61,473 nt of DNA from a virus, in the IMG/VR virus record IMGVR_UViG_3300044731_000955, positions 1 through 61,473 of that record; one strand, given 5' to 3'. Shown here in pieces: positions 3,603 to 45,589 of this stretch. Both the position numbers and the translations under genes were made by a program. Every line of letters begins with the position of its first letter. Positions within the stretch are counted from its first letter, which is position 1. The notes beneath the pieces were generated by a model, which had not been told where the DNA came from, did no database searches, and saw only the letters and a program-made list of their open reading frames with translations.

Positions 3603-3827
3603 TTATATTGTCCACTTTTTTTCCGGACAAGCGTCTGCTCCCACAGGTGAGAACACTTTAGCACTCGTAGTACAGCCACATTTACCACAATAATCGCGTA
3701 TAGTAGATTGCACCCAAAACTCACAATTAGCACATATTTCAAGTCTTTTTTCAGCCACTTCTTTTTGCTCTTCTGTTGGGTTCATAGCAGTCATATAAGA
3801 CAGCAGGATTTCTTTTACTTTGTTCAT
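3603..3827 (-). CDS. Cys-rich mini-protein, probable zinc-binding
   Basis: 74 aa with an N-terminal helix and then a cysteine cluster: CANC (32-35), CGKCGC (about 48-53) and a last Cys near the C-terminus (ACPEKKW). The spacing suggests a small zinc ribbon. It is the last gene of the minus-strand glycosyltransferase operon and overlaps the preceding gene by 4 bp (ATGA). The function is unknown; small proteins of this type accompany phage glycosyltransferase genes. Confidence 0.6.
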   Translation of the reverse strand: MNKVKEILLSYMTAMNPTEEQKEVAEKRLEICANCEFWVQSTIRDYCGKCGCTTSAKVFSPVGADACPEKKWTI

Positions 3828-4471
3828 AAATTTAGATATGTTTTGTAAGATGATGAAGTATTTGCATTTTTTATGTAATATTTAAACTCTTCATTGTTTT
3901 CATAAGTTTCTTGGTTAAATTCCCAAGGATAATGTCTAGCTACATATGGGTAGGTAGTGCTTGCTCCACCAACAAAATAAGGGGTTCCTTTTTTATACAA
4001 AGCAAAGGTAGTATCTATTGCTATATCTGTGTAGATATTGTTTGTATGAGCAGAATTCCATCTATTTTTTTCGTATGATTGTAGATGGTTATAATATAAT
4101 GAATCTTCTTTTACTATTCCCCAATTCAATCCTAATCCTATCTTATCTAATCCTAATGAGTCCATATTATCTTTTAAATACAAAAGAGTATCTGAAGGTG
4201 TATCTAGTAAACCCACATCTGCGTCCGTTATAACATAATCATAATTTGTTATAACATCACCTAGTATTTGCCAAGGAGCTGTATGCCCTATGTTTTCTGT
4301 TCTGTGTATTGTGCATGGGCTTGTATCATACCATTCTAGAAGTGGTGGATAGTCTGAGCCATTATCTATAATAATAATTTCACCCACTCCTTCGTAAGTT
4401 TTAATCTTATTTACCATTTCTACCACCCAAGTAAATAGATTTCTATTATTTATAATTACAGGTATATTCAT
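3824..4471 (-). CDS. GT-A fold glycosyltransferase (GT2-like)
   Basis: 215 aa. The N-terminus has the nucleotide-binding Rossmann-like pattern of GT2 enzymes: a beta strand (VIINNR), then IIIIDNGSDYPP (residues ~33-44), then YDYVITDADVG with the metal-binding DAD (DxD) motif. The C-terminal half (YFVGGASTTYPYVARHYPW) would shape the acceptor site. It is short for GT2 and has no membrane helix, so a soluble transferase is expected. It is coupled to its neighbours by one- and four-base overlaps. The sugar donor and acceptor are unknown. Confidence 0.75.
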   Translation of the reverse strand: MNIPVIINNRNLFTWVVEMVNKIKTYEGVGEIIIIDNGSDYPPLLEWYDTSPCTIHRTENIGHTAPWQILGDVITNYDYVITDADVGLLDTPSDTLLYLKDNMDSLGLDKIGLGLNWGIVKEDSLYYNHLQSYEKNRWNSAHTNNIYTDIAIDTTFALYKKGTPYFVGGASTTYPYVARHYPWEFNQETYENNEEFKYYIKNANTSSSYKTYLNL

Positions 4472-5025
4472 TAATTATGTACATATAAAACTTTATCAAT
4501 CTTCACATAGTCTTGATATGCTTGCATTACCTTCTCTACAAAGTACCCATCAGCAGCATATTCTTTGCCTAATATTATATTTTTCCCTACATCGTTTCTT
4601 ACTGCAAATGCTCCAATATCTATTTGATTAAACACTAGTGAGCATTCAAAAAAATGGTATTCGTAATGAGAATGCACCATGTCCCAATATATTATTGCTG
4701 GATTAAATTCAGATGCTTTAGATAACTCCTCAACAAAATTTGGGGTGTAATAATTATCATCACCACTCATTACAATATATTTAGCTACACTATTTTGTTT
4801 GCCTAATTCTCTAGGCGTATGTCCCCAATCATTATATGTTTTATCTAATAGTGTATATTTTATTCTGTCATCTTTTACAATGTCAATTTGGTTAAATTCA
4901 TCTACGCTATTATCTATAATTACATTAGCTACCCAATCTGTATTTGTCTGAGCTAATAATGAATAGAGCATACTCTTTAGTTCATTAATTCTATTGTAGG
5001 TTGGTATAATAAAATCTACTATCAT
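4471..5025 (-). CDS. GT2 family glycosyltransferase, short
   Basis: 184 aa beginning MIVDFIIPTYNRINEL, the classic GT2 first strand. It continues with VIIDNSVDEF and YIVMSGDDNYYTPNF, where DD (in SGDD) is the probable metal-binding motif. No acceptor-recognition domain or membrane segment follows. The start overlaps the next upstream gene by 4 bp, so these genes are translated as a coupled set. Substrate unknown. Confidence 0.8.
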   Translation of the reverse strand: MIVDFIIPTYNRINELKSMLYSLLAQTNTDWVANVIIDNSVDEFNQIDIVKDDRIKYTLLDKTYNDWGHTPRELGKQNSVAKYIVMSGDDNYYTPNFVEELSKASEFNPAIIYWDMVHSHYEYHFFECSLVFNQIDIGAFAVRNDVGKNIILGKEYAADGYFVEKVMQAYQDYVKIDKVLYVHN

Positions 5026-5762
5026 TTATTTAAGAAGTCTTTTAGTAATTGGCTGTAATCATATTTCCAATTTGGATTTAGATACACATCACCCGTTGGT
5101 ATTTTACCTTGCATTCTTAACGATTCTATATGTTCAAAATGCCTTACAATTACGCTTGGCTTAGAATCATCATTATCGCTACCCATTCCGGACATATGGT
5201 AACCCCTTCCACCCCATACATAGAACCAACTAACTTCATCATCCGGTGGTGATGCTAGAACTACTTTTTCGGGGAAGTTCTCCTTAATGCTAATAACAAA
5301 TGTCATGTCATAGCCAGCATTTTCTAATGGATGTTTACCCACTCCTTCCCATGCTTCTCTGCTATATACTATACCACTATTACCAAGTGATGTAATGGCT
5401 TGTATATCAGGTACATTAAAAAATATTCCTTTTTGCCAATGCATCAATGCCGTTCCTTCTACAAAATATTTATCTATATTTTTTAGGTGATTTGGTAAGG
5501 CTAAGTCATCGTCATCCCAAACTATAATTGTATCTCCTTTACATTGTGATACTGCAAAGTTTTCTTTATCTCCAATAGTGGGAAATGTATAATCTAAATT
5601 AATTATTCTTACATCTGGATGGTCAAATATTAATTTTTGTTCTGGATAATCATTTACGATTACTAATTCTTTTTCTCCGTCATAATCTTGATTTAAAAAA
5701 GATTGTAAAGACTCTTCTAAATATTCCACTCTTCCGTATGTAATCATCTTGCAAGAAAGCAT
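5022..5762 (-). CDS. GT2 family glycosyltransferase
   Basis: 246 aa. N-terminal SCKMITYGRVEYLEESLQSF and ELVIVNDYP are GT2-type, and GDTIIVWDDDDLALPNHL holds the acidic DxD metal site. ASPPDDEVSWFYVWGGRGYH later could contribute the catalytic base region. It is the second gene of the leftward operon. The function is transfer of a sugar to an unknown acceptor; no transmembrane segment is visible. Confidence 0.82.
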   Translation of the reverse strand: MLSCKMITYGRVEYLEESLQSFLNQDYDGEKELVIVNDYPEQKLIFDHPDVRIINLDYTFPTIGDKENFAVSQCKGDTIIVWDDDDLALPNHLKNIDKYFVEGTALMHWQKGIFFNVPDIQAITSLGNSGIVYSREAWEGVGKHPLENAGYDMTFVISIKENFPEKVVLASPPDDEVSWFYVWGGRGYHMSGMGSDNDDSKPSVIVRHFEHIESLRMQGKIPTGDVYLNPNWKYDYSQLLKDFLNK

Positions 5763-5768
5763 AATTTA

Positions 5769-6698
5769 TTATTTTAAAACTGTTTTTAAAGCTGTTTCGC
5801 ATATCTCATTCCAATAATAAGAAGATGCTCTATCGGGGCTGATTTGAAGGTCGGCGCCATAGGGCAATTTATTTATGTATTCACCCTTAAAGAATAATCC
5901 ACTAATAGAATCTGTAACGCCTGCGTTATGCAGTATAGTATATGTTTCTACATCTGAGTAATTGTTAGTAACCCACCCAAAATCCATTCTTTTATCTACT
6001 CTTGTTTCATGCCCAAAGTACCATGCGTTCCAAAGAAAAGACCACATTCCTGCTGTCCACTTTTGAATAGGATAATCTCCGTCATGCTTCATTTTATAAT
6101 TTGGTTCTTCGTCACAGAAATATTTATATAAAATAATAGAGTCTAGTTCAACCTTTTCCCAAAATTCAAAGGTGGTATTTTTAACTATGTATTGCGCTCC
6201 CCCAGAATTATTATTCAAAAGCTTTGGTATTAATTTGTCAATGCCAATTATCTCACACATCTTTTCATACACATGATTGCCCTTCTGTTGAATATAATCG
6301 TAATTTATGTAGCTGTTTGTATCACTTAAAAACCATGAATTGCCCGCTATCATTGAATTAAACTCCGGTTTCTTTGTGAAAACAATATCCGAATCATGTA
6401 AAAATAAAACCTCATTCTGCAACTCCGGATGAGCTAGTAAATGTTGTTTCATTAGATTAAAGTAAACGGATGGGATATAAAATTTATCTACCCTATTATC
6501 ATTATAAAAAAAGAAATTAACCGGATATGTCTCTTTTAATTTTTGCCAATCATCGGGTATAATATCATTATCAATGGAACATACTATGTTAATACAATCT
6601 GTATCAACGCCCATTTTTATAAAATTATTAATTAGAACCTCGCACTGCCAAGTGTAGTATGGTATAGCGGGTTGGCAACAGACGTATCTTAACTTCAT
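5769..6698 (-). CDS. GT-A glycosyltransferase resembling plant-type peptidyl Ser/Hyp O-glycosyltransferases
   Basis: 309 aa. The start, YVCCQPAIPYYTWQCEVLIN, then a small strand ending INIVCSIDND, resembles by eye the opening of hydroxyproline O-arabinosyltransferases and peptidyl-serine galactosyltransferases (an aromatic-WQ motif followed by a TRLLSC-like strand). The metal site is FLHDSDIVF (DSD), and NNNSGGAQYIVKN and FGHETRVD follow. If the resemblance is real, the acceptor would be protein Ser or hydroxy-residues. It is the first gene of the leftward operon, directly after the -7 box at 6710-6717. The GT-A call is solid; the subfamily is tentative. Confidence 0.65.
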   Translation of the reverse strand: MKLRYVCCQPAIPYYTWQCEVLINNFIKMGVDTDCINIVCSIDNDIIPDDWQKLKETYPVNFFFYNDNRVDKFYIPSVYFNLMKQHLLAHPELQNEVLFLHDSDIVFTKKPEFNSMIAGNSWFLSDTNSYINYDYIQQKGNHVYEKMCEIIGIDKLIPKLLNNNSGGAQYIVKNTTFEFWEKVELDSIILYKYFCDEEPNYKMKHDGDYPIQKWTAGMWSFLWNAWYFGHETRVDKRMDFGWVTNNYSDVETYTILHNAGVTDSISGLFFKGEYINKLPYGADLQISPDRASSYYWNEICETALKTVLK

Positions 6699-6709
6699 AC
6701 TTTTTTTAG

Positions 6710-6717
6710 CAAAGTTA
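6710..6717 (-). promoter_or_regulatory. -7 box (TAACTTTG) of the minus-arm glycosyltransferase operon
   Basis: The minus strand reads TAACTTTG, matching TAnnTTTG, 11 bp before the ATG at 6698. The AT-palindrome-like element TTAATTTAATTAAA abuts it upstream (to ~6732), the same arrangement as at several other operons here. Confidence 0.55.
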
Positions 6718-6736
6718 TTTAATTAAATTAATAAAC

Positions 6737-7114
6737 CTAATATTCTTTGTAAGATTTTTCTTCGGTTAGTTCTGAGCCGTATTTTGTATTGATTTGTTTT
6801 TTGATGATGGCTCTGACATCGTTTAATTGGTAAACCTCCCGAGCTAGTTCTACGAACTTATCTCCAAAGTCTTTTTTGTGTTCATAGTCCCTTAAACTAT
6901 CTTCTACTGCCCATAGTTTTTTGTTTATGGAGTATAGCTCTTGTACTAATGGGTCTATTAAAATGACTGAGTGCTTTTTATTTAGGGCGTTTTTTACCAT
7001 TTTCCACTCTTTGTCTATGTTTATAAGCTTTTCTGTATCGTGTATTAAAAGCTTTTTTATGGTTAGGATGGTATATTTGTCCACCACTTCACCGATGCTG
7101 ACTTCTATTTTCAT
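6737..7114 (-). CDS. DUF6165-like protein
   Basis: 125 aa starting MKIEVSIGEVVDKYTILTIK, the conserved opening of a small helical family (DUF6165, by recall) found beside glycosyltransferase genes in bacteria and phages. The rest is Lys/Glu/Leu-rich helix with no catalytic motif. It is the promoter-proximal gene on the left side of the divergent region centred on the palindrome at 7145-7164. The biochemical role is unknown; association with sugar transfer is by neighbourhood. Confidence 0.6.
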   Translation of the reverse strand: MKIEVSIGEVVDKYTILTIKKLLIHDTEKLINIDKEWKMVKNALNKKHSVILIDPLVQELYSINKKLWAVEDSLRDYEHKKDFGDKFVELAREVYQLNDVRAIIKKQINTKYGSELTEEKSYKEY

Positions 7115-7144
7115 GGGCTAAAGATAAGATTTTTACCATTAATC

Positions 7145-7164
7145 ATTAATTTAATTAAATTAAT
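7145..7164. promoter_or_regulatory. Perfect 20-bp palindrome between divergent operons (operator candidate)
   Basis: ATTAATTTAATTAAATTAAT is its own reverse complement. It lies between the divergently transcribed 6737-7114 gene and the rightward operon, 4 bp before a + strand -7 box. Related sequences occur near other promoters in the window, so a DNA-binding regulator or a shared promoter element is likely. Confidence 0.55.
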
Positions 7165-7168
7165 TCCA

Positions 7169-7176
7169 TAGCTTTG
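7169..7176 (+). promoter_or_regulatory. -7 box (TAGCTTTG) of the rightward glycosylation operon
   Basis: TAGCTTTG matches TAnnTTTG and lies 44 bp upstream of the 35-aa gene at 7221. It is the only clear + strand promoter before 7387 and would drive 7221-10799. Confidence 0.55.
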
Positions 7177-7220
7177 TGGTAACTAAAACAAATAACGAAT
7201 AAACCTAAAAAATACAAAAA

Positions 7221-7328
7221 ATGAAAGAAACACTATTGATAGTATTATTAATTGTAATTATTATTTTTATTATCTCATATTATTGTGCTAAATGGCACAC
7301 TAAAACTTATGATGACCCATTTCTATAA
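7221..7328 (+). CDS. 35-aa single-span membrane peptide
   Basis: ATG preceded by an A-rich stretch (AATACAAAAA), encoding MKETLLIVLLIVIIIFIISY then a short polar tail ending DDPFL. It has one strong transmembrane helix. It is the first ORF after the promoter at 7169 and could tether the glycosylation enzymes to the membrane, but that is a guess; it may also be a decoy ORF. Confidence 0.5.
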   Translation: MKETLLIVLLIVIIIFIISYYCAKWHTKTYDDPFL

Positions 7329-7386
7329 CCAAAACAATATAAAAGAGCATTACCCAAGTGATGAAAATACACTAAATAAATAACAT

Positions 7387-8751
7387 ATGCCTACAAGCTA
7401 CCCGCTCTACAAAGATTCTGTCCGAAATTGGTTTCTGCAAAATGTCCCTTTAGATACTACTATATTAGATATTGGAGCAGGATGTGGTACTTATAGTGAT
7501 TTGATTCGTGGTTATGGTTATAAAATGGATGCGGTAGAAATATGGGAGCCATACATAAACCAATATGGGTTAAAGAATAAGTATGGGTGGGTGTATGAAG
7601 AGAATGTCCTTAAAATGCCCCTTGATGTACTTGGAGCCTATGACTTTTATATATTGGGTGATATTTTGGAACATTTGTCTGTGGAAGATGCCCAATGGCT
7701 CATGAATTTTTTAAAGATAAAAGGTAAACAATATCTTATAGCTGTGCCTTATGTTATGGAGCAAGGTGAGTATGAAGGCAATGTCCATGAAACCCACTTA
7801 CAGCCTGACCTTACGCCAGAAATAATGCTAGAAAGATACCATGATTTAGAACTGCTTTATGGCAATAATTTCTATGGTTATTACACAAATAAAAAACAAA
7901 AACATGAGAAAGCTTACGTCCTTTATGCTGATGATTCCTATTATGACCTTGTGGATGCTTGTTGTCGTTCCATTAGAAATTTTAGTGATTACCCTATATA
8001 TGTTTATATGCTTAATTCTTCTCAAAAGGTGAATGTGGTAAATACCATTACTAAAAGATGGGATTGTGATGTAATACATTTAAAGAAGCGTAATGATTAT
8101 ATAGTTAGAGAAGATAAGCAGATATATAAGCTACTGATTGAAAGACCTAAGATAGTAAGAGATGCTTTGAAATATGCTGAAACCGTTGCCTATATTGACA
8201 CAGATAGCATAGCAAACTGGAACGTAGATTCTATTTTTGATTATTATGATGTAGAATCAGACTACCCATATTTTACAAAGGGAATATATGATTTCTTAAT
8301 AATTAATGGTAAAGGTGGTGCGAGTAGTTATGATGACTTGAGTGATACATTGGAAGCGCCATTGTGTGAATTGTTTAAATCAGACCAATCAATAAGAAAA
8401 TTTACTGGCTATAGGCAAACTGGTTACTTTGTTGCCGGTCAAAAATCTATTGATTTCTTAGATATTTGGGCGCATAGATGTCAACACCCAATGATATTAA
8501 AAGACAATGCAAGATATGCTCCATACAATGAAGAAAGCGTTCTGCAAACGTTATTATATGATTTTAATGCACACAAAGGATTACCATTAATTTATGTCAA
8601 TGGATTACGCAAGGGGCTTGAGTTTAAAGGATATGAATACTTTATGGGTGAATGGTTTAAAGTACCTGCACAAAAAGATGATTTACTTTTTTACCATGGA
8701 GAAAAAGATATAAATAAGATTAATGAATTTATAGAATATTTAAAGTTATGA
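7387..8751 (+). CDS. SAM-dependent methyltransferase fused to a GT-A glycosyltransferase
   Basis: 454 aa, two domains. Residues ~1-150 are a class I SAM methyltransferase: ILDIGAGCGTYSDL (motif I), AVEIWEPY (acidic end of strand 2), FYILGDILEHLS (motif IV region). Residues ~175-454 read as a GT-A transferase: YVLYADDSYYDLVDACCRSI, then VAYIDTDSIANW with the DTD metal motif, then FLIINGKGGASSYDD and FTGYRQTGYFVAGQ. The fusion suggests that one polypeptide adds and methylates a sugar, or caps a glycan. Its stop overlaps the next start by 4 bp. Substrates are unknown. Confidence 0.8.
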   Translation: MPTSYPLYKDSVRNWFLQNVPLDTTILDIGAGCGTYSDLIRGYGYKMDAVEIWEPYINQYGLKNKYGWVYEENVLKMPLDVLGAYDFYILGDILEHLSVEDAQWLMNFLKIKGKQYLIAVPYVMEQGEYEGNVHETHLQPDLTPEIMLERYHDLELLYGNNFYGYYTNKKQKHEKAYVLYADDSYYDLVDACCRSIRNFSDYPIYVYMLNSSQKVNVVNTITKRWDCDVIHLKKRNDYIVREDKQIYKLLIERPKIVRDALKYAETVAYIDTDSIANWNVDSIFDYYDVESDYPYFTKGIYDFLIINGKGGASSYDDLSDTLEAPLCELFKSDQSIRKFTGYRQTGYFVAGQKSIDFLDIWAHRCQHPMILKDNARYAPYNEESVLQTLLYDFNAHKGLPLIYVNGLRKGLEFKGYEYFMGEWFKVPAQKDDLLFYHGEKDINKINEFIEYLKL

Positions 8752-10799
8752 AGATAGTATTACTTTGCCCTTCGTTAAGTACGGGTGGTATGCCCCAATT
8801 TGCATTAAAAAGAATTCAAGAAATATTAAAGCATACTGAAAATGTAGAGATGTATTGTATTGAGCTTAATTTTCATGGGGCTGATTTTGTGGTTCAAAGG
8901 AATCAAGTAATTAAAATACTTGGAGATAGATTTTATGAGGCTGGTTTGAACAAAATGCGAGTAATAGATATTATCAATGAGATTAAGCCTGATGTGGTTC
9001 ATATTGAAGATGTGGCAGAGAGATTACCAAAGGAGCTTGCAACTGCCTTATATAGAAATGATAGACAATTCTATATCGTTGAAACGCCTCATGATAATAT
9101 ATTTAACCCTGACGCAGAAAAAATTTTCCACCCAGACCTTTATGCTTTTTGCACTCCTTTTCATGAGGACGTTTACCAAAATATGGAGTCTTTATACTTT
9201 ACAATTCAATATCCAATAGAAGAAAAAAAAGTAACTAAGGATATGAGGATTAAAGCTAAGAAAGAAGTAGGGTTTGCCTTGGATAGAAAGACGGTGTTGC
9301 AAGTGGGATTATGGACTCCACAAAAAAACCAAAAAGAAACTATTGCTATTGCTCGTAAATATCCTAATATAGATTTTGTGGTAGCTGGTAATTTGGCTGG
9401 TAATTTTCAATTTTATTGGGAAGAATTAATAAAGGATTTACCATCTAATTTTAAAGCTCTTGGTGAGAGAAGTGATATAGATACTTTGTTGCAAGCTGCT
9501 GATATATTTATTTTCCCATCTACCAATGAATGTTCTCCTTTGTCTTTGCGTCATGCTATTGAAGTTGGTTTGCCTATTGTAGCCAATAACTTACCCGCTT
9601 ATGCAGGAACCTTAGATAAGTATTTAAAACCCTTAGATTCCAATTTAAATACCATTACCAGAGATTATAAAATACCAAATAGTAACAATTCAAGAAACTT
9701 TGCACTAGAGCATAAAAAAATGTATGAGGTTCTTATGAAAATACCAATCAAAAAGCAAGCTGTTTCCATCACGCAACACTTTGTCAATCAGCCATTCTTA
9801 GAGATTAAAGGTAATAGTGAGAGTGATTTTTTAGTTCAATTTTTAGACGAAAAAGGTAGTATATATTACCAAAATACGATAAAAGCAAACCATTGGGTAC
9901 GATTAAATAGGCAGTGGTACACAAAATGGAGGACAAAAGTTTTTGAGGGCAAAGACTTGATTTACAATAGCACCTTGGACCTAGAAGGTAAAAAAGTTTT
10001 TATAGCTATTGATAGTAAATCACTTGGAGATTCGCTTGCTTGGATGCCCTATGTGGAAGAGTTTAGAAACAAGCATAATTGTACGGTGGTTTGCAGTACA
10101 TTTTGGAATAAGATATTGGACTATCCAGAGATTGAATTTGTGGAGCCGGGGACGATGATAGGATGTTATGCCATGTACACTTTGGGGTGGCATTGGAACG
10201 AAGATAAAGAACCAACCCTTTGCAATACCATTCCTTTGCAACAATCAGCTAGTAATATCCTTGGATTGGATTATGTGGAGCTAAAACCACGCTTAAAGTA
10301 TGATATTGGAGAAAATAAGTATGGCAAGTATGTCACAATCGCCACAAACAGCACTGCGGGGCTTAAATTTTGGCTTAAACCATCTTGGCAACAAGTTATC
10401 AACCACCTACACGAAAAGGGCTACAAGGTCATAAATACGTCCAAAGAACGCAATCCATTTGAAAACTGCTACCAATTAGAAGATACAAGCATAGAAAATA
10501 CCATGTCTGTTATCCATCATAGTGATTTTTTTGTAGGGCTTAGCAGTGGAATTTCATGGCTTTCCTTTGGGCTTGGCAAGAAGGTGGTAATGATTTCAGC
10601 CTTTACAGAAGCTGACCACGAGTTTGACTGCATCAGACCCCGCAATAACAATGTATGTACAAATTGTTGGAATGACCCTAAGATTAAATTCGATGCGGGA
10701 GATTTCAATTTCTGCCCGCATCATAAGGGTACTGAGAGAATGTTTGAGTGCCAAACGAGTATCACACCCGAAATGGTTATTCAGCAATTGCCTCTGTAA
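8748..10799 (+). CDS. GT4 glycosyltransferase fused to a TibC/Aah-type protein O-heptosyltransferase domain
   Basis: 683 aa. Residues ~1-330 form a GT-B (GT4-like) enzyme: CPSLSTGGMPQFALKRI, VLQVGLWTPQKNQKE, and the donor-site stretch AADIFIFPSTNECSPLSL. After ~345 the sequence matches, by recall, the autotransporter-strand O-heptosyltransferase family: FIAIDSKSLGDSLAWMPYVE, a GT9-like core (FFVGLSSGISWLSF), and a C-terminal four-cysteine finger C637-x2-C640, C656, C668 followed by TSITPEMV. In TibC this finger binds iron and the enzyme adds heptose to protein serines. The stop overlaps by 23 bp the end of the convergent gene at 10777. The domain call is strong; the sugar and target are inferred. 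Confidence 0.85.
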   Translation: MKIVLLCPSLSTGGMPQFALKRIQEILKHTENVEMYCIELNFHGADFVVQRNQVIKILGDRFYEAGLNKMRVIDIINEIKPDVVHIEDVAERLPKELATALYRNDRQFYIVETPHDNIFNPDAEKIFHPDLYAFCTPFHEDVYQNMESLYFTIQYPIEEKKVTKDMRIKAKKEVGFALDRKTVLQVGLWTPQKNQKETIAIARKYPNIDFVVAGNLAGNFQFYWEELIKDLPSNFKALGERSDIDTLLQAADIFIFPSTNECSPLSLRHAIEVGLPIVANNLPAYAGTLDKYLKPLDSNLNTITRDYKIPNSNNSRNFALEHKKMYEVLMKIPIKKQAVSITQHFVNQPFLEIKGNSESDFLVQFLDEKGSIYYQNTIKANHWVRLNRQWYTKWRTKVFEGKDLIYNSTLDLEGKKVFIAIDSKSLGDSLAWMPYVEEFRNKHNCTVVCSTFWNKILDYPEIEFVEPGTMIGCYAMYTLGWHWNEDKEPTLCNTIPLQQSASNILGLDYVELKPRLKYDIGENKYGKYVTIATNSTAGLKFWLKPSWQQVINHLHEKGYKVINTSKERNPFENCYQLEDTSIENTMSVIHHSDFFVGLSSGISWLSFGLGKKVVMISAFTEADHEFDCIRPRNNNVCTNCWNDPKIKFDAGDFNFCPHHKGTERMFECQTSITPEMVIQQLPL

Positions 10800-11018: not shown

Positions 11019-12389
11019 CTACAACCCTGCTTTGTTTAATCTTTCATTTAATTCTTCTATTTGTTTTTTTAATTCTAATATTTCAGCGTCTTTTTCTATT
11101 TTTAATTCTTGTACTGCTTTTATAGTTATATATGGCAATACTGAATTTTTTATGCTTTTATAATCGCCTTCTTCATATTCTTCTTCTATAATAGTTCCGT
11201 CTTCTTGCTCAATTTCGCGTTTCTTTTTAATTGGTTCTGTTATTACAAGATTTGGGAATACTTCTTCAACTTCTTGCGCAATTAAACCAAGTTCTTTTCC
11301 GCCTTCTATGCTTTCTTTCCATTCATAGTTTACAATTCTTAGCTTCATTAAATTATCAAGCTTTGGCGTAGCGTTAGCAATATTCTTTTTTAATCTAATA
11401 TCCGAACGACCTGAAGTTGTACCATTTGACCATATTGTAAAACAAACAACACTTGAATCAACACATTGTAAAAAATAATTAGTTGTATTATTTGGTGCAG
11501 CATTTGAAAAATATAAAAATGGCCCATATGGACTTGCCGCAACATTTGTTATATATACAACATTTTCATTATTCCTATTTGTATATATTTCGTGATAGTT
11601 ACCACTTGAATTAACATAACTGCCATTATTAGTTATTTTTGTATAACCACCACTTGCAATTTGAGTAATACGCATTCTTTCTGTAAGTGCAGTATTAAAT
11701 GTTAAAGTACCACTATTGTAAACATCTGTTTTACCACTTCCAGCTAAATCAATAGCAAAATCAGTAGAACCATTACCCATTTGTAATTCATTACCTGCAT
11801 AACCACTTGTCCCAATCGTTATACTTGTAGAGAATGTAGCTGCTCCTGTGGATGAAAAATACAATCTATTAGTTCCTGCACTTATAGGGTCTCCACCTGT
11901 TGAATTAGATTGTCTAATTGCTAAATCTCCAACTGCATCGTGTCCTGCTCTTATTGCCCAATTCTTTGAACTTGCTTGAGTATCGTAAATACTTAAATAA
12001 GCACCGCTTCCTGTTACTTTTATTTGGTCACCTGCCGTTACACTACTTGAGAATGTAGCTGCACCTGCATTAGTAATAGATAATAATCCAATAGTATTTG
12101 CAGCATTTAAAACCCTAAAACCATTTGTTACATTAGCTGAAAAATAAGCTGAAGTTCCTAAATCTTGTGATGAATTTTGTTGTATGGTTCCATTAGCTGT
12201 AAGAGTACCACTAAACGTAGCAGCAGCTCCTGTCAATGCACCACCCAATAATAATGTACTACTAACCTTAGCTGTACCAGTTACTTCTAATTTATAACTA
12301 CCACTAGGTGCTGCTCCTATTCCTACGTTGTTAGATGCGTCAGTTAGTATTGCTAAAGGAATAGTACCCAATTTCTGTGTCAGTCCCAT
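11019..12389 (-). CDS. Tail fibre/spike protein with C-terminal S74 intramolecular chaperone
   Basis: 456 aa. The first ~330 residues are Gly/Ser/Thr/Ala-rich beta-structured repeats (GAATFSSSVTAGD-type phrases). The C-terminus carries the S74 chaperone domain: GRSDIRLKKNI (self-cleavage Ser just before the Asp), YEWKESIEGGKELGLIAQEV, then a coiled coil (VQELKIEKDAEILELKKQ). These domains trimerise the fibre and are then cut off. Its start lies 1 bp after the stop of the next fibre gene upstream. It probably contributes to receptor binding; its S74 end differs from those of the two neighbouring fibres. Confidence 0.85.
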   Translation of the reverse strand: MGLTQKLGTIPLAILTDASNNVGIGAAPSGSYKLEVTGTAKVSSTLLLGGALTGAAATFSGTLTANGTIQQNSSQDLGTSAYFSANVTNGFRVLNAANTIGLLSITNAGAATFSSSVTAGDQIKVTGSGAYLSIYDTQASSKNWAIRAGHDAVGDLAIRQSNSTGGDPISAGTNRLYFSSTGAATFSTSITIGTSGYAGNELQMGNGSTDFAIDLAGSGKTDVYNSGTLTFNTALTERMRITQIASGGYTKITNNGSYVNSSGNYHEIYTNRNNENVVYITNVAASPYGPFLYFSNAAPNNTTNYFLQCVDSSVVCFTIWSNGTTSGRSDIRLKKNIANATPKLDNLMKLRIVNYEWKESIEGGKELGLIAQEVEEVFPNLVITEPIKKKREIEQEDGTIIEEEYEEGDYKSIKNSVLPYITIKAVQELKIEKDAEILELKKQIEELNERLNKAGL

Positions 12390-12390
12390 A

Positions 12391-13695
12391 TTATTTGTTT
12401 TTTAACTCGTTTAGTTCTAATCTTAATTCTTGTACTGCCTTTGTTAATATAGCTATGATACTATTGTATTCCACACCTGCTAATGAACCATCTTCATTAT
12501 AAAATACTAATTCTTTATTTACTTTTTCTACTTCATCAGCTATAAAACCATAAGTTACATTATCATATAATTCATCAGTATATTCATTAGTAAAATCATT
12601 TTTTTTACGATAATTAAATTGAACTGGATTAAGTTGGCTAATAAAATCAACATTAGTTATAGATTTTATATTTGATTTAGATTCTCTAGTTGATACTAAA
12701 TATCCTAAACCTCCACCACTTTCAACAATCATTGTTCTTCCTGAAACGGCATTATTATAAGTAAATGTTCCAGCATTAATAAAACCATCTGCTCTAACAG
12801 TAAATATATCAGTACCTGTAGAAGTTGCAGCATTTGAACCATTTCTAACTTTAAAAGCATAATAACTTGAAGAAGTTGCATTAACTGCGACTATACCACC
12901 ATAATATTGAGAATAAAGAACATAAGCTGCAGAGCCTGTATTCCCATCATTAACAAATTGTAATTTATATCCATTATCAGTAGTAGTTCCTATTAATACA
13001 TTACCCCCATTTGTAATTGCCATTCTTGGTGTAAAAGTTACTGCTGTATTTATAGTTCCTGAAGGTGCAGTGTACCAAGTATGACCACCAGCATATTGTT
13101 CATAATCACTTGCTTGTGCAGTACTTGCATATAATCTTGAATTTGAAGAAGCAGAAAAATAATAATTATTAGTAAGATGAAACTCATTAACATATCTACC
13201 CCAAACAGCACTACCTACAAAACCTACCTCTAATGCTTTACCATTTACCCAACCATTACTCGGTGTAACTCCTAATCCTAAATTGCCATTTGTATCAATA
13301 GTTAATCTTGTTGCAGATGCAGTATTATCTTCTAAAGTAAGGCTTCCAGTTGAACCAAGGTCAAAAGAATAATTTCTATTGGTTTTTGTAGTTCCAGCAG
13401 TTCTAATAAGTTTTAAACGAGGGAAAAAGTCACCTGTTGCACTTGCAGCAATTTCTTGATTACTACCACCAACTGATGTAATACCACTACTAAACGTAGC
13501 ACTTGTACCACTTAATGCTCCTGTAAAATTACCTGTACCACTAACATCTAATTTATAAGTAGTATTAGTATTACCTATTCCAACATTAGTTCCATTATCA
13601 AATATTAAGCTATTGCCTATGGTTGTACCTGTGGCACGAAGTAAAAAATTTGTGGTTACGAGGGGTGCCGTAGCCAATATACTATTTGTACTCAT
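12391..13695 (-). CDS. Tail fibre protein with S74 chaperone domain
   Basis: 434 aa. It has a repetitive fibre body (LRATGTTIGNSLIFDNGTNV, GIGNTNTTYKLDV) and a C-terminal S74 domain from about residue 330: LVSTRESKSNIKSI, LNPVQFNYRKK, YGFIADEVEKVN, ending in a Leu/Glu coiled coil. The last ~105 residues are close to those of the 1215-aa fibre upstream, so one arose from the other by duplication. Its ATG overlaps the TGA of the GIY-YIG gene. It likely forms trimeric fibres or replaces the tip of another fibre. Confidence 0.85.
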   Translation of the reverse strand: MSTNSILATAPLVTTNFLLRATGTTIGNSLIFDNGTNVGIGNTNTTYKLDVSGTGNFTGALSGTSATFSSGITSVGGSNQEIAASATGDFFPRLKLIRTAGTTKTNRNYSFDLGSTGSLTLEDNTASATRLTIDTNGNLGLGVTPSNGWVNGKALEVGFVGSAVWGRYVNEFHLTNNYYFSASSNSRLYASTAQASDYEQYAGGHTWYTAPSGTINTAVTFTPRMAITNGGNVLIGTTTDNGYKLQFVNDGNTGSAAYVLYSQYYGGIVAVNATSSSYYAFKVRNGSNAATSTGTDIFTVRADGFINAGTFTYNNAVSGRTMIVESGGGLGYLVSTRESKSNIKSITNVDFISQLNPVQFNYRKKNDFTNEYTDELYDNVTYGFIADEVEKVNKELVFYNEDGSLAGVEYNSIIAILTKAVQELRLELNELKNK

Positions 13696-14360
13696 ATTAA
13701 ATCTTTTTTATATTTCCATTTAAAACCTCTATGGTAGTGGCTTAAACCTCTGCAAACCTTTGATATTGAAGCTGAGCTATATCCTATTTTAGATGCTGCA
13801 TTTACACTTTTATATGTAGCTACAAGTTCTCCATCTAAACTAAATTGATGTACTTCCATTGCTGGTCTATAACAAGTACAATTTCTTTTTTTATGAATTA
13901 AATTCTTCTTGGATTCTCTTATCTTATCTTTTGTTTCTTGAGATAATCTAGTAAAAGTTCTTGTTAAAGCAAATTTTTCTCTTTGCCCTTCCCTTTGGTA
14001 AACTTTTTTAACCGCTTCTCCTGTTTTCTTTCTATGCTCGTCACTATAAATATATTTTCTACCAAGCGTTCCTTCATCACCTCCATCAGTATAATTACAT
14101 AAAGTACCTGTACCCAAGTCTTTTCTACCATATAACTTGATAAATTCCTTTTCTTTTTCACAAGATTCCTCGTGAGTCAAATTATCAAGTAATATTTCTA
14201 CCTCAAAATCTGTTTTATTTGTAATATTTTGCCATAATTTATTTCTTCTATGTTTATGACTTTTGTCATAGGCTCTAGCATAATTGTCATCAGTTGCTGA
14301 AATGCCAATATAGAATGGTTCATTATTGTCTAATCTGATATGTCTGTAAACGTATGCCAT
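13692..14360 (-). CDS. GIY-YIG homing endonuclease with NUMOD3/NUMOD1 modules
   Basis: 222 aa. The N-terminal YVYRHIR...PFYIGIS matches the GIY-YIG core, followed by a helical region with ARAYDKSHKHRRN and a Glu (EKEFIKLYGR). Residues ~110-140 (GRKYIYSDEHRKKTGEAVKK) look like NUMOD3, and the C-terminus (HQFSLDGELVATYKSVNAAS ... GFKWKYKK) like NUMOD1 DNA-binding modules. It sits between two paralogous fibre genes with ATGA and TAATG overlaps on both sides, so it is a free-standing intergenic homing endonuclease. It would cut alleles lacking it and drive spread of the linked fibre region. Confidence 0.88.
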   Translation of the reverse strand: MAYVYRHIRLDNNEPFYIGISATDDNYARAYDKSHKHRRNKLWQNITNKTDFEVEILLDNLTHEESCEKEKEFIKLYGRKDLGTGTLCNYTDGGDEGTLGRKYIYSDEHRKKTGEAVKKVYQREGQREKFALTRTFTRLSQETKDKIRESKKNLIHKKRNCTCYRPAMEVHQFSLDGELVATYKSVNAASKIGYSSASISKVCRGLSHYHRGFKWKYKKDLI

Positions 14361-17300
14361 TATTTTGTAGCTACAATTTTTTTAAGTTCTTCAATTTGTG
14401 CTTGTTGTTCTTGAATAGCTTTTGTTAATATTGCTATCATATTGTTATACTCAACACCAGCCAAAGTAACACCATCTTCTTGATAAAATACTAAGTCTTT
14501 ATTAACCTTTTCCACCTCATCAGCTATAAAACCATAAGTTATATTATCATATAATTCATCAGTAAATTCATTTGTTATATTATCTTTTTTACGATAATTA
14601 AATTGTACTGGATTAAGTTGATTAATAAAATCAACATTACTTATAGATTCTATATTTGCCTTTGATTCTCTTGTGGATACTAAATATCCTAATACTCCAG
14701 ATGAACTTAATATAGCAGTTCTACCAGTTGCTGAAATATTATAAGGTGAATTAGTTTGTGTACCAGTTTCTATTAATCCATCATTTCTAACTTGAAACAA
14801 AGCATTTGCGGCACTACTTTCAACTCTGAAACCAAATGTAGCACTTGTCGCACCAGCTCCTCTAACAGCTAATCTCATGTCTGAATATCCAGTCATTCCG
14901 ATTCCAACATTCCCCCCACTTGTAAGAGTAAATGGTTGATTACCTGCGGTTTCATTATATATAAACAATGAAGTAGTTCCTAAACCAAATTTATATTTTT
15001 GAGCAGTTCCACTTGTTTTTTCAAATGTTATTGTACCACCTTCTGTACCACTACTTGTTATATGTAGCTGTCCTACTGAGCCACCATTATAAGCAGTAGA
15101 TAAAGTTCCTGTTGTTGCCGTTACACTACTTGAGAATGTAGCTGCACCTGTTGAGGCTATGGTAAGTAATGTAGTAGCTCCTACCCCACTAAACAATCTT
15201 AAATTAGTTGAATCAACAAGCAAAGAATAAGTTAAAGGTGTACCACCGCCTGTCATTACAAAATAAGTATCCCCAGTACTAGACAAATGCAGTTTACCAC
15301 TTGGACTACTTGTTCCAATACCAAGATTACCTGAAGCGTCAAGATTCATTCTTTGTACCCAAGTAAGTGCATTGTCAGCAGTTCCGCTTGCAGCAGTGTA
15401 CCAACGATGGTCAGAGCCGTCAATAAGATATTGACCTGCTACGTCTGTAAATTTATATTTCCAACCTGTATCAAAATAACTATTTGTTGTTAAGTATAAT
15501 ACATTAGCACTATTTTGGAAAGCAATAGCAGATTGATTATTTGTATCTCCACCTTCTAAAACTCTAAAAATACTTCCCCACGCACTTATTGTTGTAACTC
15601 CTACTCCTATATTACCACTAAACGTAGCACTTGTACCACTTAAAGCTCTTGACACTAAGGTAACAGTAGTACCATTATCTGTGATTGCACTATCTCCTAT
15701 TGTACTTGATGCTGTGAACTTTGGTATTGTATTAATTGTACCAGAACCAGCTATTCCACTATAAGCTCCTACTGAATAAGAGTAAGCATAAACTACTACT
15801 ATATCATTTAATTGACAAGCTGTTGCTAATATTATACTTGTACCATTGGTTGCAGTATATTCTGATTGAGCAAGATTAGAACCATTATAAAAAACATCTA
15901 TTAAGCCTTGAGTATAACTTACTGAAAAAGTAGTTTGCGCAGCTGTCGCAGTAAAAGTAGTTATAGTTCTTAATGCATTTGTTGGTAAATATGCCGTCAA
16001 TAAATTATCAATCTCAACAATGTTACCAGCCGCTAAAGCCGCCGCCATAACCACTGTTGTACCATTAGTCGCAGTAAAATCAGTACCATTTACAAACTTA
16101 ACTCCATTCACAAACACATCTACCATTCCAAGATTGTAACCATTGGTAACAGTAAAAGTTGTCTGTCCTGATGTCGATGTAAAAGTCTGAACCGCTCTCG
16201 CTGATGTTGTTGCGTTACCGCTTGTCCCAGACGACCCACTAGTCCCTGTGGAGCCACTTGTCGCAGATGTCCCAGACGTCCCAGTCGTCCCCGATGAGCC
16301 ACTTGAGCCAGCCGAACCTGACGTCCCAGACGTTCCACTAGTCGCAGACGACCCAGATGTCCCAGTGGTCCCACTTGAGCCAGATGACCCACTTGAACCA
16401 GCCGAACCTGATGACCCTGTTGAACCATCAACACCACTAGTTCCAGAAGACCCACTTGACCCTGCCGAACCGCTTGAACCTGTATTTCCACTTGACCCAT
16501 TTATACCACTTGACCCACTTGACCCTGACGAGCCACTAGTTCCTGAAGTTGTACCTACAGCTACACCAATTTGTTTTATGTTGGTAATTATTGAAGGAGC
16601 TGCTGGTATTGTTCCTGTTGCAGCTACTGCTGTTACTTGTACATCAGATGCATTTGCTTGAAAATAAACTTCATAATAATCATTAGCATTTGCACTATCA
16701 ATAATAGAAACGAATGGTAACTGCTTTGCACTTTGGCTTCTTAAACCTAAGATAGAATCAGTTCTAATAATATTAGCTCCATTTTTCTTTAGCCAAATAT
16801 TAACATCTGCACCTCCACCACCTGTATGTTCAATTTGTAATGAATATGCTATTTCATAGATACCAGTATGTTGAACTGTAAGTTGTGAACCAGAATATAC
16901 TATACCATTACTTAATTCATCATTTGTGTATGTAATTGCTGTTGGTGTATTTGCCGCTGTAACCACTTGAGTAGATGTACTTGTAAACGCACCATACCAG
17001 TTAGCTATTGAAGCTCCTGAAGAACCATCAATACCATTACGACCAGTAGTCCCAGATGTCCCAGCTGACCCACTGCTGCCAGATGTCCCAGAAGAACCAC
17101 TGCTGCCAGACGACCCACTTGTCCCAGTTGACCCACTGGTCCCCGCTGTCGCAGATGTCCCAGAAGTACCACTAGACCCATCTCCTCCACTCGCACCATC
17201 TAAGTTAACAGACCAAGCAGAATAAGTTCCGCTACCTACTGTTCTAGTTGGAGCTGCGAATGATAAAGAACCTGTTGCTGGATTATAAGCTGTAACCTCA

Positions 17301-18007
17301 CACTCTTGGAAGTTATTAGCGTCATAAACCACAATTATAGATTGAGCTACCGTATATGCTAATTGAGTACCTACAGTTAAAGTTCCTGCATTACCCAATG
17401 TAAATGTTGTCGATGAAGTTGTGGCATATCTGTCACCTTGTAAACCACTTGTACCAGAAGTCCCAGATGTTGCACTACTGCCAGAAGTTCCAGCCGTACC
17501 ACTTGTCGCAGACGAACCACTTGTCCCACTTGTCGCAGACGTTCCAGATGACCCACTTGAACCTCCCGTTCCGTCTGTGGCAGATGTTCCAGAAGACCCA
17601 CTCGACCCACTTGTTGCAGATGTCCCAGAGGAGCCACTAGTCGCAGATGAGCCAGATGTCCCACTTGTTCCCCCCGTTCCGTCTGTCGCAGATGTTCCAG
17701 AAGTCCCAGATGTCGCAGACGACCCACTTGTCCCCGCGGTAGCAGATGTCCCAGATGACCCACTTGTCGCAGATGAGCCACTAGTCCCTGCGGAGCCAGA
17801 TGACCCAGAAGTCCCAGACGAGCCAGATGTCGCACTTGTACCTGCAGTCCCTGATGTCGCACTTGTTCCAGATGACCCAGACGAGCCAGAAGTCCCAGAA
17901 GAACCAGAAGAGAAGCTCGTAGCGGTCACAATTCCGTCCGTTGCTACAAGAACTCCGTTAAGACCTCTTACCTTTAAATCGCCTGAAATTAATCCTTGTA
18001 TTGCCAT
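14360..18007 (-). CDS. Long tail fibre with Gly-X-X triplet repeats and S74 chaperone
   Basis: 1215 aa. After ~35 residues (GLISGDLKVRGLNG) come long stretches of collagen-like triplets built only from Gly, Ser, Thr and Ala (GTSGSSGTSATSGSSG type). They occur in three blocks, about 36-185, 275-325 and 485-595, separated by globular beta domains. The distal part has beta-repeat modules (GAATFSSSVTATTG) and a C-terminal S74 domain (LVSTRESKANIESI, LNPVQFNYRKK, YGFIADEVEKVN). The triplets lack proline, unusual for a collagen-like shaft. The blocks offer hundreds of Ser/Thr sites and might be glycosylated by the enzymes encoded at 3.8-10.8 kb. Confidence 0.88.
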   Translation of the reverse strand: MAIQGLISGDLKVRGLNGVLVATDGIVTATSFSSGSSGTSGSSGSSGTSATSGTAGTSATSGSSGTSGSSGSAGTSGSSATSGSSGTSATAGTSGSSATSGTSGTSATDGTGGTSGTSGSSATSGSSGTSATSGSSGSSGTSATDGTGGSSGSSGTSATSGTSGSSATSGTAGTSGSSATSGTSGTSGLQGDRYATTSSTTFTLGNAGTLTVGTQLAYTVAQSIIVVYDANNFQECEVTAYNPATGSLSFAAPTRTVGSGTYSAWSVNLDGASGGDGSSGTSGTSATAGTSGSTGTSGSSGSSGSSGTSGSSGSAGTSGTTGRNGIDGSSGASIANWYGAFTSTSTQVVTAANTPTAITYTNDELSNGIVYSGSQLTVQHTGIYEIAYSLQIEHTGGGGADVNIWLKKNGANIIRTDSILGLRSQSAKQLPFVSIIDSANANDYYEVYFQANASDVQVTAVAATGTIPAAPSIITNIKQIGVAVGTTSGTSGSSGSSGSSGINGSSGNTGSSGSAGSSGSSGTSGVDGSTGSSGSAGSSGSSGSSGTTGTSGSSATSGTSGTSGSAGSSGSSGTTGTSGTSATSGSTGTSGSSGTSGNATTSARAVQTFTSTSGQTTFTVTNGYNLGMVDVFVNGVKFVNGTDFTATNGTTVVMAAALAAGNIVEIDNLLTAYLPTNALRTITTFTATAAQTTFSVSYTQGLIDVFYNGSNLAQSEYTATNGTSIILATACQLNDIVVVYAYSYSVGAYSGIAGSGTINTIPKFTASSTIGDSAITDNGTTVTLVSRALSGTSATFSGNIGVGVTTISAWGSIFRVLEGGDTNNQSAIAFQNSANVLYLTTNSYFDTGWKYKFTDVAGQYLIDGSDHRWYTAASGTADNALTWVQRMNLDASGNLGIGTSSPSGKLHLSSTGDTYFVMTGGGTPLTYSLLVDSTNLRLFSGVGATTLLTIASTGAATFSSSVTATTGTLSTAYNGGSVGQLHITSSGTEGGTITFEKTSGTAQKYKFGLGTTSLFIYNETAGNQPFTLTSGGNVGIGMTGYSDMRLAVRGAGATSATFGFRVESSAANALFQVRNDGLIETGTQTNSPYNISATGRTAILSSSGVLGYLVSTRESKANIESISNVDFINQLNPVQFNYRKKDNITNEFTDELYDNITYGFIADEVEKVNKDLVFYQEDGVTLAGVEYNNMIAILTKAIQEQQAQIEELKKIVATK

Positions 18008-32709: not shown

Positions 32710-34692
32710 TTATAATTGAGTACAGTTTGTTGTATCAGAACAATCTGTTGCAAATCCTCCGAAAGAAATATTTGGAGAAGTGGCTGTTGCGCCCACAAAA
32801 CTATCTATAAAATAACATGTTGTAGGTGTACCACCTGTTATATAATAATATGAACCAACAGATAATGAACTAGAAGTAATAATATTACTTGTTCCTCCAT
32901 CGCAAATTGTAGCAGTATATTCAAAATAATCAAGAGGAGGTGGTGGCGGTTCAGTTGTGGTTGTAGTCGTTGGTGCAGCAGTTGTAGTTGTTGGAGCAGC
33001 AGTAGTTGTTGTCGTAGTACAATTTATTGTTACAGCTGTATTTTGAACTGATGTTTGAGGTAATGAATCTCTAACTGCAGTATACCAATTACCATTTGCA
33101 ATACCACTAAAATTATGAGAAGTAGCACCACCACCTAAAGTAACTCTAAACCCACCAGCTCCGCAAGCTCCGCCCGCGACACAAGTTGCTGCATTTGCTT
33201 GTGAATCTGCAATGGCTACAAAATTATAAGTACTTGTTCCACCTGTGAATGAAGCTGTAAATGAACCTGTTGTGCCGCTACAAGTTACACCACCATTAGT
33301 TATTACTAAAGGAGGTAATGTTGTAGTTGTTGTAGTCGTTGGAGGAAGTGTCGTTGTCGTTGGTGCAGCAGTTGTAGTTGTTGGAGCAGCAGTAGTTGTT
33401 GTCGTAGTACAATTTATTGTTACAGCTGTATTTTGAACTGATGTTTGAGGTAATGAATCTCTAACTGCAGTATACCAATTACCATTTGCAATACCACTAA
33501 AATTATGAGAAGTAGCACCACCACCTAAAGTAACTCTAAACCCACCAGCTCCGCAAGCTCCGCCCGCGACACAAGTTGCTGCATTTGCTTGTGAATCTGC
33601 AATGGCTACAAAATTATAAGTACTTGTTCCACCTGTGAATGAAGCTGTAAATGAACCTGTTGTGCCGCTACAAGTTACACCACCATTAGTTATTACTAAA
33701 GGAGGTAATGTTGTAGTTGTTGTAGTCGTTGGAGGAAGTGTCGTTGTCGTTGGTGCAGCAGTTGTAGTTGTTGGAGCAGCAGTAGTTGTTGTCGTAGTAC
33801 AATTTATTGTTACAGCTGTATTTTGAACTGATGTTTGAGGTAATGAATCTCTAACTGCAGTATACCAATTACCATTTGCAATACCACTAAAATTATGAGA
33901 AGTAGCACCACCACCTAAAGTAACTCTAAACCCACCAGCTCCGCAAGCTCCGCCCGCGACACAAGTTGCTGCATTTGCTTGTGAATCTGCAATGGCTACA
34001 AAATTATAAGTACTTGTTCCACCTGTGAATGAAGCTGTAAATGAACCTGTTGTGCCGCTACAAGTTACACCACCATTAGTTATTACTAAAGGAGGTAATG
34101 TTGTAGTTGTTGTAGTCGTTGGAGGAAGTGTCGTTGTCGTTGGTGCAGCAGTTGTCGTAGTACTAGTTGTTGGTGCAGCAGTTGTCGTAGTACTAGTTGT
34201 TGGTGCAGCAGTTGTCGTAGTACTAGTTGTTGGTGCAGCAGTTGTCGTAGTACTAGTTGTTGGTGCAGCAGTTGTCGTAGTACTAGTTGTTGGTGCAGCA
34301 GTTGTAGTTGTAGTTGTTGGCGCAGCAGTAGTAGTCGTTGTTGGCGCAGCAGTAGTAGTCGTTGTTGGTGCAGCAGTTGTCGTAGTAGTTGGAGCAGCAG
34401 TTGTTGTTGTAGTAGTAGTTGTAGGTGCAGCTGTAGTAGTCGTAGTTGTTGGAGCAGCAGTAGTTGTTGTAGTAGTTGCTGAATTTATATTTAAAATCAA
34501 ACTATTAGTACAACTACCTAAAGATGTAATTGTTACACTAGTTGCAGAATTATCTACAGTAGCATAAATTCCAGATAAAAGCTCAGTAAGAGTTGCGTTG
34601 CTAGGATTAATAGTACCAGTATTTACATTTAATGTAAAATTTGGTCCTAAATTTAAACCTTGACCTGAATTTAATGTAACTAATACTATCAT
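32710..34692 (-). CDS. Thr-rich mucin-like virion protein with three identical repeat modules
   Basis: 660 aa. A ~70-residue N-terminal beta domain is followed by a Thr/Ala/Pro tract (TTTTAAPTTST repeats, ~75-195). Then come three identical 130-aa units, each a Cys-containing Ig/SprB-like beta module (ITNGGVTCSGTTGSFTASF ... TAVTINC) joined by APTTTT and LPPTTTT linkers. A final beta domain contains YYYITGGTPTTCYF. The tracts are dense in Thr and Pro, like O-glycosylated mucins. No signal peptide is seen. It lies between the two halves of the split tail protein and is likely exposed on the virion. Its repeats are identical at DNA level, so copy number probably varies. Confidence 0.65.
   Translation of the reverse strand: MIVLVTLNSGQGLNLGPNFTLNVNTGTINPSNATLTELLSGIYATVDNSATSVTITSLGSCTNSLILNINSATTTTTTAAPTTTTTTAAPTTTTTTTTAAPTTTTTAAPTTTTTAAPTTTTTAAPTTTTTTAAPTTSTTTTAAPTTSTTTTAAPTTSTTTTAAPTTSTTTTAAPTTSTTTTAAPTTTTLPPTTTTTTTLPPLVITNGGVTCSGTTGSFTASFTGGTSTYNFVAIADSQANAATCVAGGACGAGGFRVTLGGGATSHNFSGIANGNWYTAVRDSLPQTSVQNTAVTINCTTTTTTAAPTTTTAAPTTTTLPPTTTTTTTLPPLVITNGGVTCSGTTGSFTASFTGGTSTYNFVAIADSQANAATCVAGGACGAGGFRVTLGGGATSHNFSGIANGNWYTAVRDSLPQTSVQNTAVTINCTTTTTTAAPTTTTAAPTTTTLPPTTTTTTTLPPLVITNGGVTCSGTTGSFTASFTGGTSTYNFVAIADSQANAATCVAGGACGAGGFRVTLGGGATSHNFSGIANGNWYTAVRDSLPQTSVQNTAVTINCTTTTTTAAPTTTTAAPTTTTTTEPPPPPLDYFEYTATICDGGTSNIITSSSLSVGSYYYITGGTPTTCYFIDSFVGATATSPNISFGGFATDCSDTTNCTQL
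32967..34155. repeat. Three perfect 390-bp tandem repeats
   Basis: Reading line by line, the sequence from about 32967 recurs without any difference at +390 and +780, with a partial fourth start (~19 bp). Each unit encodes one 130-aa module of the Thr-rich protein. Perfect identity means recent duplication or active gene conversion. Confidence 0.9.
34141..34290. repeat. Five perfect 30-bp tandem repeats (minisatellite)
   Basis: The unit beginning TGGTGCAGCAGTTGTCGTAG occurs five times without gaps at 34141, 34171, 34201, 34231 and 34261. Each encodes 10 residues of the TTSTTTTAAP type on the minus strand. Degenerate copies continue to about 34480. Confidence 0.9.
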
Positions 34693-34712
34693 TTTTTTAT
34701 TTTAATTCATTT

Positions 34713-45184: not shown

Positions 45185-45589
45185 TTAAGGTGCTGCTGTT
45201 GTTGTGGTAGTAGGCGCTGCCGTTGTCGTTGTTGTTGTATTACCTTGTAATAACAAATATTTACCAATAATACCAAATTCAACAATACCAGCTGCCGCAA
45301 TTGATGCAATATCTGTTTTGGTTGTTAAATTAACTCCTAAAACCGAAACCCAGTTAATTGGCACTTCTGGTGCAGGTGATAATTGCCCTGTAATAGAACC
45401 ATCATCGTTAGTAGTACTAAAACTAACTGTTCCAGATGTACCTACAAATTGTACTACCGCAGAATCCCATCCAGATAAATCTTGGTAAAAATTATTATTA
45501 GCATTAAAAGAATCTGTTGCATCTACAACTGTGCTAATTTTTGAACTAAATTTTTGTAGTCTTATTAAAAGTTTACTTACCGTTGCCAT
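45185..45589 (-). CDS. Small beta-rich structural protein with Thr-rich tail
   Basis: 134 aa. A compact beta domain (SKLLIRLQKFSSKISTVVDA, WDSAVVQFVGTSGTVSFS) ends in a short mucin-like tail TTTTTTAAPTTTTTAAP. The same tail motif occurs in proteins at 32710, 34713 and 51288. It may be a head decoration protein whose Thr tail is exposed. The tail looks added to a self-contained domain. Confidence 0.55.
   Translation of the reverse strand: MATVSKLLIRLQKFSSKISTVVDATDSFNANNNFYQDLSGWDSAVVQFVGTSGTVSFSTTNDDGSITGQLSPAPEVPINWVSVLGVNLTTKTDIASIAAAGIVEFGIIGKYLLLQGNTTTTTTAAPTTTTTAAP

Follow-up and report, generated by a model that had tools for sequence, protein, structure and literature searches.

What does a virus do with a group of glycosyltransferase genes placed next to its tail fibres? 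Phage glycosyltransferases are common and are usually explained as modifying host LPS or phage DNA. The locus at positions 3603-10799 of the window, by which we mean the whole stretch of 61,473 nucleotides analysed here, raises the question of what its transferases act on. The source record (IMGVR_UViG_3300044731_000955) is a 61.5-kb virus whose TerL is approximately 28% identical to those of the Flavobacterium elemo and Cellulophaga podoviruses. Its major-capsid-like protein matched no annotated phage and gave no help for taxonomy.

Gene organization of the cassette

The cassette is flanked by lysis-type genes (M15 peptidase, 1087-1557) on one side and by tail fibres (11019-18007) on the other, and all of these flanking genes are on the minus strand. 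Its gene content is as a sequence-only reading of this DNA had placed it: a GT4-TibC fusion, a methyltransferase-transferase fusion, a DUF6165 protein, four GT-A-type transferases and a Cys-rich mini-protein. In the plus-strand arm, a SAM methyltransferase (residues ~1-170) joined to a GT-A domain (MT-GT, 7387-8751) overlaps by 4 bases with the GT4-TibC gene (8748-10799), in which a GT4 domain (~1-310) is followed by a linker/barrel and a C-terminal TIGR04414 domain (360-680) with an iron finger. In the minus-strand arm, the DUF6165 protein (6737-7114; 42.1 bits against a cut-off of 27) is a conserved partner and is divergent from MT-GT, and phrog_4417 (5769-6698) is a GT-A-fold glycosyltransferase with an invariant DxD (D102, D104). 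Three genes occupy a variable slot. Those at 5022-5762 and 4471-5025 are GT2-family transferases that pass Glycos_transf_2, and a homologue of the latter is absent in 16 relatives; the gene at 3824-4471 is a probable GT2-type transferase, the support coming only via its homologue L188 (26.2 bits against 23.3). The conserved Cys-rich mini-protein (phrog_13558, 3603-3827) borders the slot. Promoter and terminator scans around the cassette gave results not better than shuffles. Between DUF6165 and MT-GT (7221-7328, plus strand), an unannotated 35-codon frame encodes a small hydrophobic peptide, MKETLLIVLLIVIIIFIISYYCAKWHTKTYDDPFL.

Three fibre genes follow on the minus strand. An S74 tail-fibre protein (11019-12389), which is convergent with GT4-TibC, and a variable fibre protein with an S74-type C-terminus (12391-13695) are possible acceptors, while the proposed acceptor is a collagen-like Ser/Thr fibre with a C-terminal S74 domain (14360-18007). 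In Pfam searches the fibres scored 104 bits, over the cut-off, for collagen (PF01391, E=3e-30) and 32.6 bits for the S74 chaperone domain. The cassette had been described as standing beside Ser/Thr-rich virion genes, which is right for the adjoining collagen/S74 fibres and wrong for the Thr-rich APTTTTT proteins, located 22-41 kb away. Among the fibre genes (13692-14360) there is also a protein that is GIY-YIG-like by sequence motif, and its homologues adjoin the GT4-TibC gene in L001, G011, G073 and G082. It is a possible driver of fibre and transferase gene swapping.

The TibC domain and its residues

The product of 8748-10799 scored 239.4 bits against the NCBIfam model TIGR04414 (Aah/TibC), above the curated cut-off of 200, and 18 further relatives from the TerL set scored 210-257 bits. 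It also matched Pfam GT4 (55 bits) and Glyco_transf_9, and it aligned with the TibC crystal structure (PDB 4rap) with an E-value of 2.6e-45. The residues named for TibC are the base D110, T226, K230, W305 and the iron ligands C339, C342, C358 and C370 (PMC4358343). The catalytic Asp-110 and the donor-phosphate residues Thr-226 and Lys-230 correspond to D428, T536 and K540, and the four iron-finger cysteines to C637, C640, C656 and C668; all of these are invariant in 19 phage homologues. The heptose-contact Trp-305 corresponds to W604 and is kept in more than 90% of the homologues, and Pro-300 of TibC aligns with Ser in the window, as in AAH. Judging from this alignment, the TibC domain is very probably an active protein O-glycosyltransferase.

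Two features of TibC are not conserved. Arg-286, which contacts the adenine of the ADP-sugar donor, aligns with Thr-585, and the beta-hairpin thumb (Phe-265/Val-266), which forms the dodecamer ring, is shortened by the loss of ten residues in two gaps, with Phe-265 aligned with Cys-574 and Val-266 opposite a gap. Since Arg-286 is replaced and the thumb is shortened, the donor nucleotide and the ring assembly may differ from those of TibC. With these two features of the bacterial autotransporter heptosyltransferase (BAHT) family absent, the case for an enzyme that acts on a phage fibre in the manner of TibC is better than the case for a BAHT heptosyltransferase. The protein did not reach the equivalog cut-offs of the LPS heptosyltransferases, scoring 20.3 bits for RfaQ (cut-off 467) and 16.3 bits for heptosyltransferase I (cut-off 185). 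By a hydropathy scan, all cassette proteins lack membrane segments.

The phage does not seem to make its own sugar donor. We rejected a phage-encoded heptose donor because GmhA was found in only one of the 44 TibC-bearing virus records searched, and the window was without GmhA.

Companion enzymes and gene fusions

PDB sequence-profile searches with phrog_4417 and with the GT domain of MT-GT gave no glycosyltransferase match, and the folds were therefore predicted instead. For phrog_4417 a GT-A fold was obtained (AlphaFold2/Foldseek, pLDDT 85), with matches to glycogenin, UGGT and LARGE1, and MT-GT was predicted to begin with a class I SAM methyltransferase and to continue with a GT-A domain. 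In six relatives (L003, L006, L008, L012, G052 and G064), MT-GT, either whole or as its GT domain, and GT4-TibC form one polypeptide of about 1150 residues. In the distant record G122, an FkbM methyltransferase, a DXD sugar transferase, GT4 and GT9 are found within one 1454-residue protein. The fusion of like parts in distant lineages argues for one pathway. The cassette enzymes are TibC-, GT4- and GT-A-type glycosyltransferases together with a methyltransferase, and gene fusion in relatives makes them one unit. A GTDB genome scan for a bacterial source of the fusion yielded only a weak match to GT4 and, in a Bacteroidetes MAG, a partial match at the end of a contig.

Conservation and variation among relatives

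GT4-TibC belongs to the core genes of this clade of phages. Of the 18 relatives that measure 49 kb or more (TerL 80-99% identical), 17 have TIGR04414, and the one without it contains two TerL copies in inverted orientation and is apparently a chimera. An accessory moron was ruled out, as the gene is present in every near-complete relative except one chimera. The record G051 (IMGVR_UViG_3300032323_002596) is an inverted-duplication contig with TerL twice and mirrored tracts, that is, an assembly artefact.

The core gene nevertheless varies as much as the fibre tips. When we compared the window with the relative G071, TerL and the major capsid protein were 99% identical, DUF6165 94% and the methyltransferase domain 96%, while GT4 was only 51% identical, TibC 68% and the N-terminal parts of the fibres 42% and 26%. 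The linker/barrel, unlike its flanking domains, was 91% identical, and the GT4 domain of the window was 73-87% identical to a set of genomes different from G071. These alignments show that domains are swapped within a single gene, at a rate that is otherwise observed for the fibre tips. The content of the transferase slot between the mini-protein and DUF6165 also changes from genome to genome.

Co-occurrence of TibC with Ser/Thr-rich collagen

In the window collagen (14360-18007), Ser occupies the Y position in 60 of the 80 triplets. Ser/Thr-rich collagen-like fibres were found in all 17 TibC genomes examined, whole or in part, and nearly always adjoin GT4-TibC. We then compared virus records with a length of 40 kb or more, picked by DNA pattern only, many of which are fragments, with a random set picked by an arbitrary 14-17-mer. 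Among the records listed, TIGR04414 was carried by 16 of 28 GTSGTSG collagen records, 2 of 20 random records and 4 of 22 APTTTTTT records (2 of 18 among those without GTSGTSG), and by none of the 23 Gly-Pro-Gln collagen records, from which G129, bearing both patterns, was left out. With kinship ignored, Fisher P values for the GTSGTSG set were 0.001 against the random set and 6e-6 against Gly-Pro-Gln collagen; when the TibC-bearing records were collapsed to ten lineages, they were 0.012 and 2e-4, respectively. All of these co-occurrence statistics apply to records that are related by kinship and drawn from mixed host groups. In a wider random set of 30 records, the sole GTSGTSG record (G143) was among the two TIGR04414 carriers, although G123 has an identical TibC.

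The two genes are also physically close. In 16 distant records with both, the distance was at most 2 kb in 8 and at most 5 kb in 11, whereas a 6-kb fibre gene placed at random would be expected to come this close in about 1.9 and 2.8 records, respectively; these cut-offs were chosen after viewing the data, and G107, at 5.0 kb, was counted just outside. The association is incomplete in both directions: TIGR04414 was missing from 12 of the 28 GTSGTSG records listed, some of them fragments, and of the TibC records at a greater distance roughly half lacked the GTSGTSG pattern. No Ser/Thr collagen was found within 8-10 kb of TibC in G110, G120, G118 and G135. The statistical partner of TibC is the Ser/Thr-rich collagen-like fibre sequence, to which it is both linked and statistically tied. 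In the record G129, TibC lies near a collagen-like gene (L638:16346-19708) whose Ser/Thr content is only 3% over the part read, and 70 GTSGTSG matches occur elsewhere in that record.

In an annotated phage collection, only four records carried a TibC domain like that of the window, one of them a cultured phage, Microcystis phage Mel-JY01. Its TibC domain belongs to a 1226-residue protein annotated as 'methyltransferase FkbM', and a Ser/Thr collagen frame of 1016 residues is located 1.7 kb away. This frame (L761:2-3052, plus strand, PP395634.1) crosses the start of the record, where most of the submitted annotation is on the other strand. In the 735-kb record LR756501, Ser/Thr collagen is within about 5 kb of the TibC domain; in LR756504 it was absent from the stretch read. 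In elemoE, a cultured relative without TibC, the tail-fibre collagen has 9% Ser/Thr.

Proposed mechanism and alternatives

Based on these observations, we suggest, with a probability of about 0.6, that the cassette is a virion O-glycosylation system in which TibC places sugars on Ser of the collagen-like fibre, GT4, MT-GT and the GT-A enzymes extend them, and the fibre benefits. Late in infection, the cytoplasmic TibC domain would transfer the first sugar, a heptose-like one, from a nucleotide-sugar of the host to the serines of the Gly-X-Ser repeats. The fused GT4 would attach a second sugar, MT-GT would attach and methylate a further one, and the variable GT-A genes would determine a strain-specific end of the glycan. 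Glycosylation would precede fibre assembly, and the probable benefit is a fibre shaft that is stabilised, protected and antigenically variable. Glycosylation of the phage's own virion, as the sequence-only reading had it, is the best-supported account, given the TIGR04414 match, the catalytic residues, the lack of membrane segments, the location among late genes and the fibre linkage; its Thr-tract acceptor did not hold up.

That acceptor, the APTTTTT tracts of Thr-rich virion proteins acting as mucin-like domains, appears quite unlikely to us. The tracts lie at 32710-38831, 45185-45589 and 51288-51635, and the candidate was a 660-residue protein (32710-34692, minus strand), which gains no support from co-occurrence. 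They are kept at the protein level with mixed Thr codons, so that they are not a simple DNA repeat, they are often C-terminal, and they are present in 13 of 17 TibC genomes. However, four TibC genomes (G050, G070, G002 and G011) have none, the distance to the cassette is large, and TibC in E. coli modifies Ser, not Thr (PMC4358343). The tract as main acceptor was rejected after the scan of the viral collection, where, among the records listed, those with tracts and without Ser/Thr collagen carried TibC at the background rate. As a separate observation, APTTTTTAAP forms the C-terminal tails of several unrelated small proteins, both in the window (45185-45589, 51288-51635) and in L003, L004, L006, L008 and L009; with synonymous codon variation among its copies, it is apparently a shared C-terminal tag. 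We also consider it very unlikely that TibC and Ser/Thr collagen co-occur only because both are frequent in phages that infect the same groups of hosts, with the enzymes acting on some other virion or host protein. Our samples carry no phylogenetic correction, and when TibC is clustered at 50% identity, a single cluster takes in 6 of the 16 positive collagen records, yet the association holds over the ten lineages, is seen in genomes from 50 to 735 kb in size, at least one of them with a cyanobacterial host, and is accompanied by physical proximity of the genes in distant lineages.

Remodelling of host LPS or capsule during infection, excluding other phages, is unlikely. The glycosyltransferases beside the variable tail fibres of pelagimyophages were read in this way in PMC7029224, GT9 (Pfam Glyco_transf_9) includes LPS heptosyltransferases, and the slot GT2 enzymes weakly match polysaccharide families. 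Against it, the core enzyme passes the cut-off for protein O-glycosyltransferases and none for LPS heptosyltransferases, and it keeps the iron finger; the absence of membrane segments from all cassette proteins disfavours a lipid-linked surface polysaccharide as substrate. Moreover, action on the host surface gives no reason for a tie to Ser/Thr rather than Gly-Pro-Gln collagen. Glycosylation of modified phage DNA bases against restriction, a known role of other phage glycosyltransferases according to work cited in PMC12619734, is hardly conceivable here: the core is of the protein type, the genes are beside fibres and not replication genes, their variation is coupled to that of the fibres, and an unsystematic look noticed no base-modifying gene in the window.

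Beyond this locus, we give an even chance to the broader proposal that TibC-type transferases, usually fused to GT4 and methyltransferase domains, are a widespread phage O-glycosylation machine for Ser/Thr collagen fibres, that Ser/Thr is there because it is glycosylated, and that swapped domains diversify the glycan as the fibre tips change. If true, it would explain why many phage collagens are Ser/Thr-rich and not Pro-rich, it would add a sugar layer to the phage parts that meet the host, and sugar-coated collagen fibres would be a widespread, overlooked phage feature. An enzyme-acceptor pair recurring in about ten lineages would give many phage glycosyltransferases a concrete job. Since the cultured phage Mel-JY01 carries the TibC-collagen pair, the idea is directly testable.

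Comparison with known systems

A literature search, thin on subscription journals, did not turn up a description of TibC-type enzymes that modify phage collagen. In the host-recognition clusters of pelagimyophages, glycosyltransferases adjoin variable tail fibres as they do here; according to the available text of PMC7029224, the authors inferred host LPS modification, GT8 is the main family and, unlike in the window, a TIGR04414 core is not reported. In mycobacteriophages, glycans on the C-termini of capsid and tail-tube subunits have a shielding effect (Freeman et al. 2023, as cited in PMC12619734). As far as that account goes, the two systems share phage-encoded glycosyltransferases and glycans on virion proteins, the latter proposed for the window, whereas a putative TibC-type core and a putative collagen-like fibre acceptor belong to the window.

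A further comparison is with the BAHT enzymes TibC and AAH (TIGR04414). The window enzyme resembles them in family score, catalytic Asp, phosphate-binding Thr/Lys, sugar-contact Trp and four-Cys iron finger and, as proposed, in cytoplasmic protein O-glycosylation of Ser-rich repeats. It differs in being phage-encoded and fused to GT4 (and MT-GT), in having Thr for Arg-286 and a shortened thumb hairpin, and in that no autotransporter partner was noticed. The acceptor proposed here is collagen-like, whereas that of BAHT is a beta-helix.

BclA of Bacillus spores is an O-glycosylated collagen-like protein in which Thr of Gly-Pro-Thr carries other sugars, added by unrelated enzymes. Like BclA, the window fibre would be a Gly-X-Y collagen-like filament on the particle surface bearing O-glycans; unlike BclA, it has mostly Gly-X-Ser triplets and is accompanied by a TibC-type enzyme.
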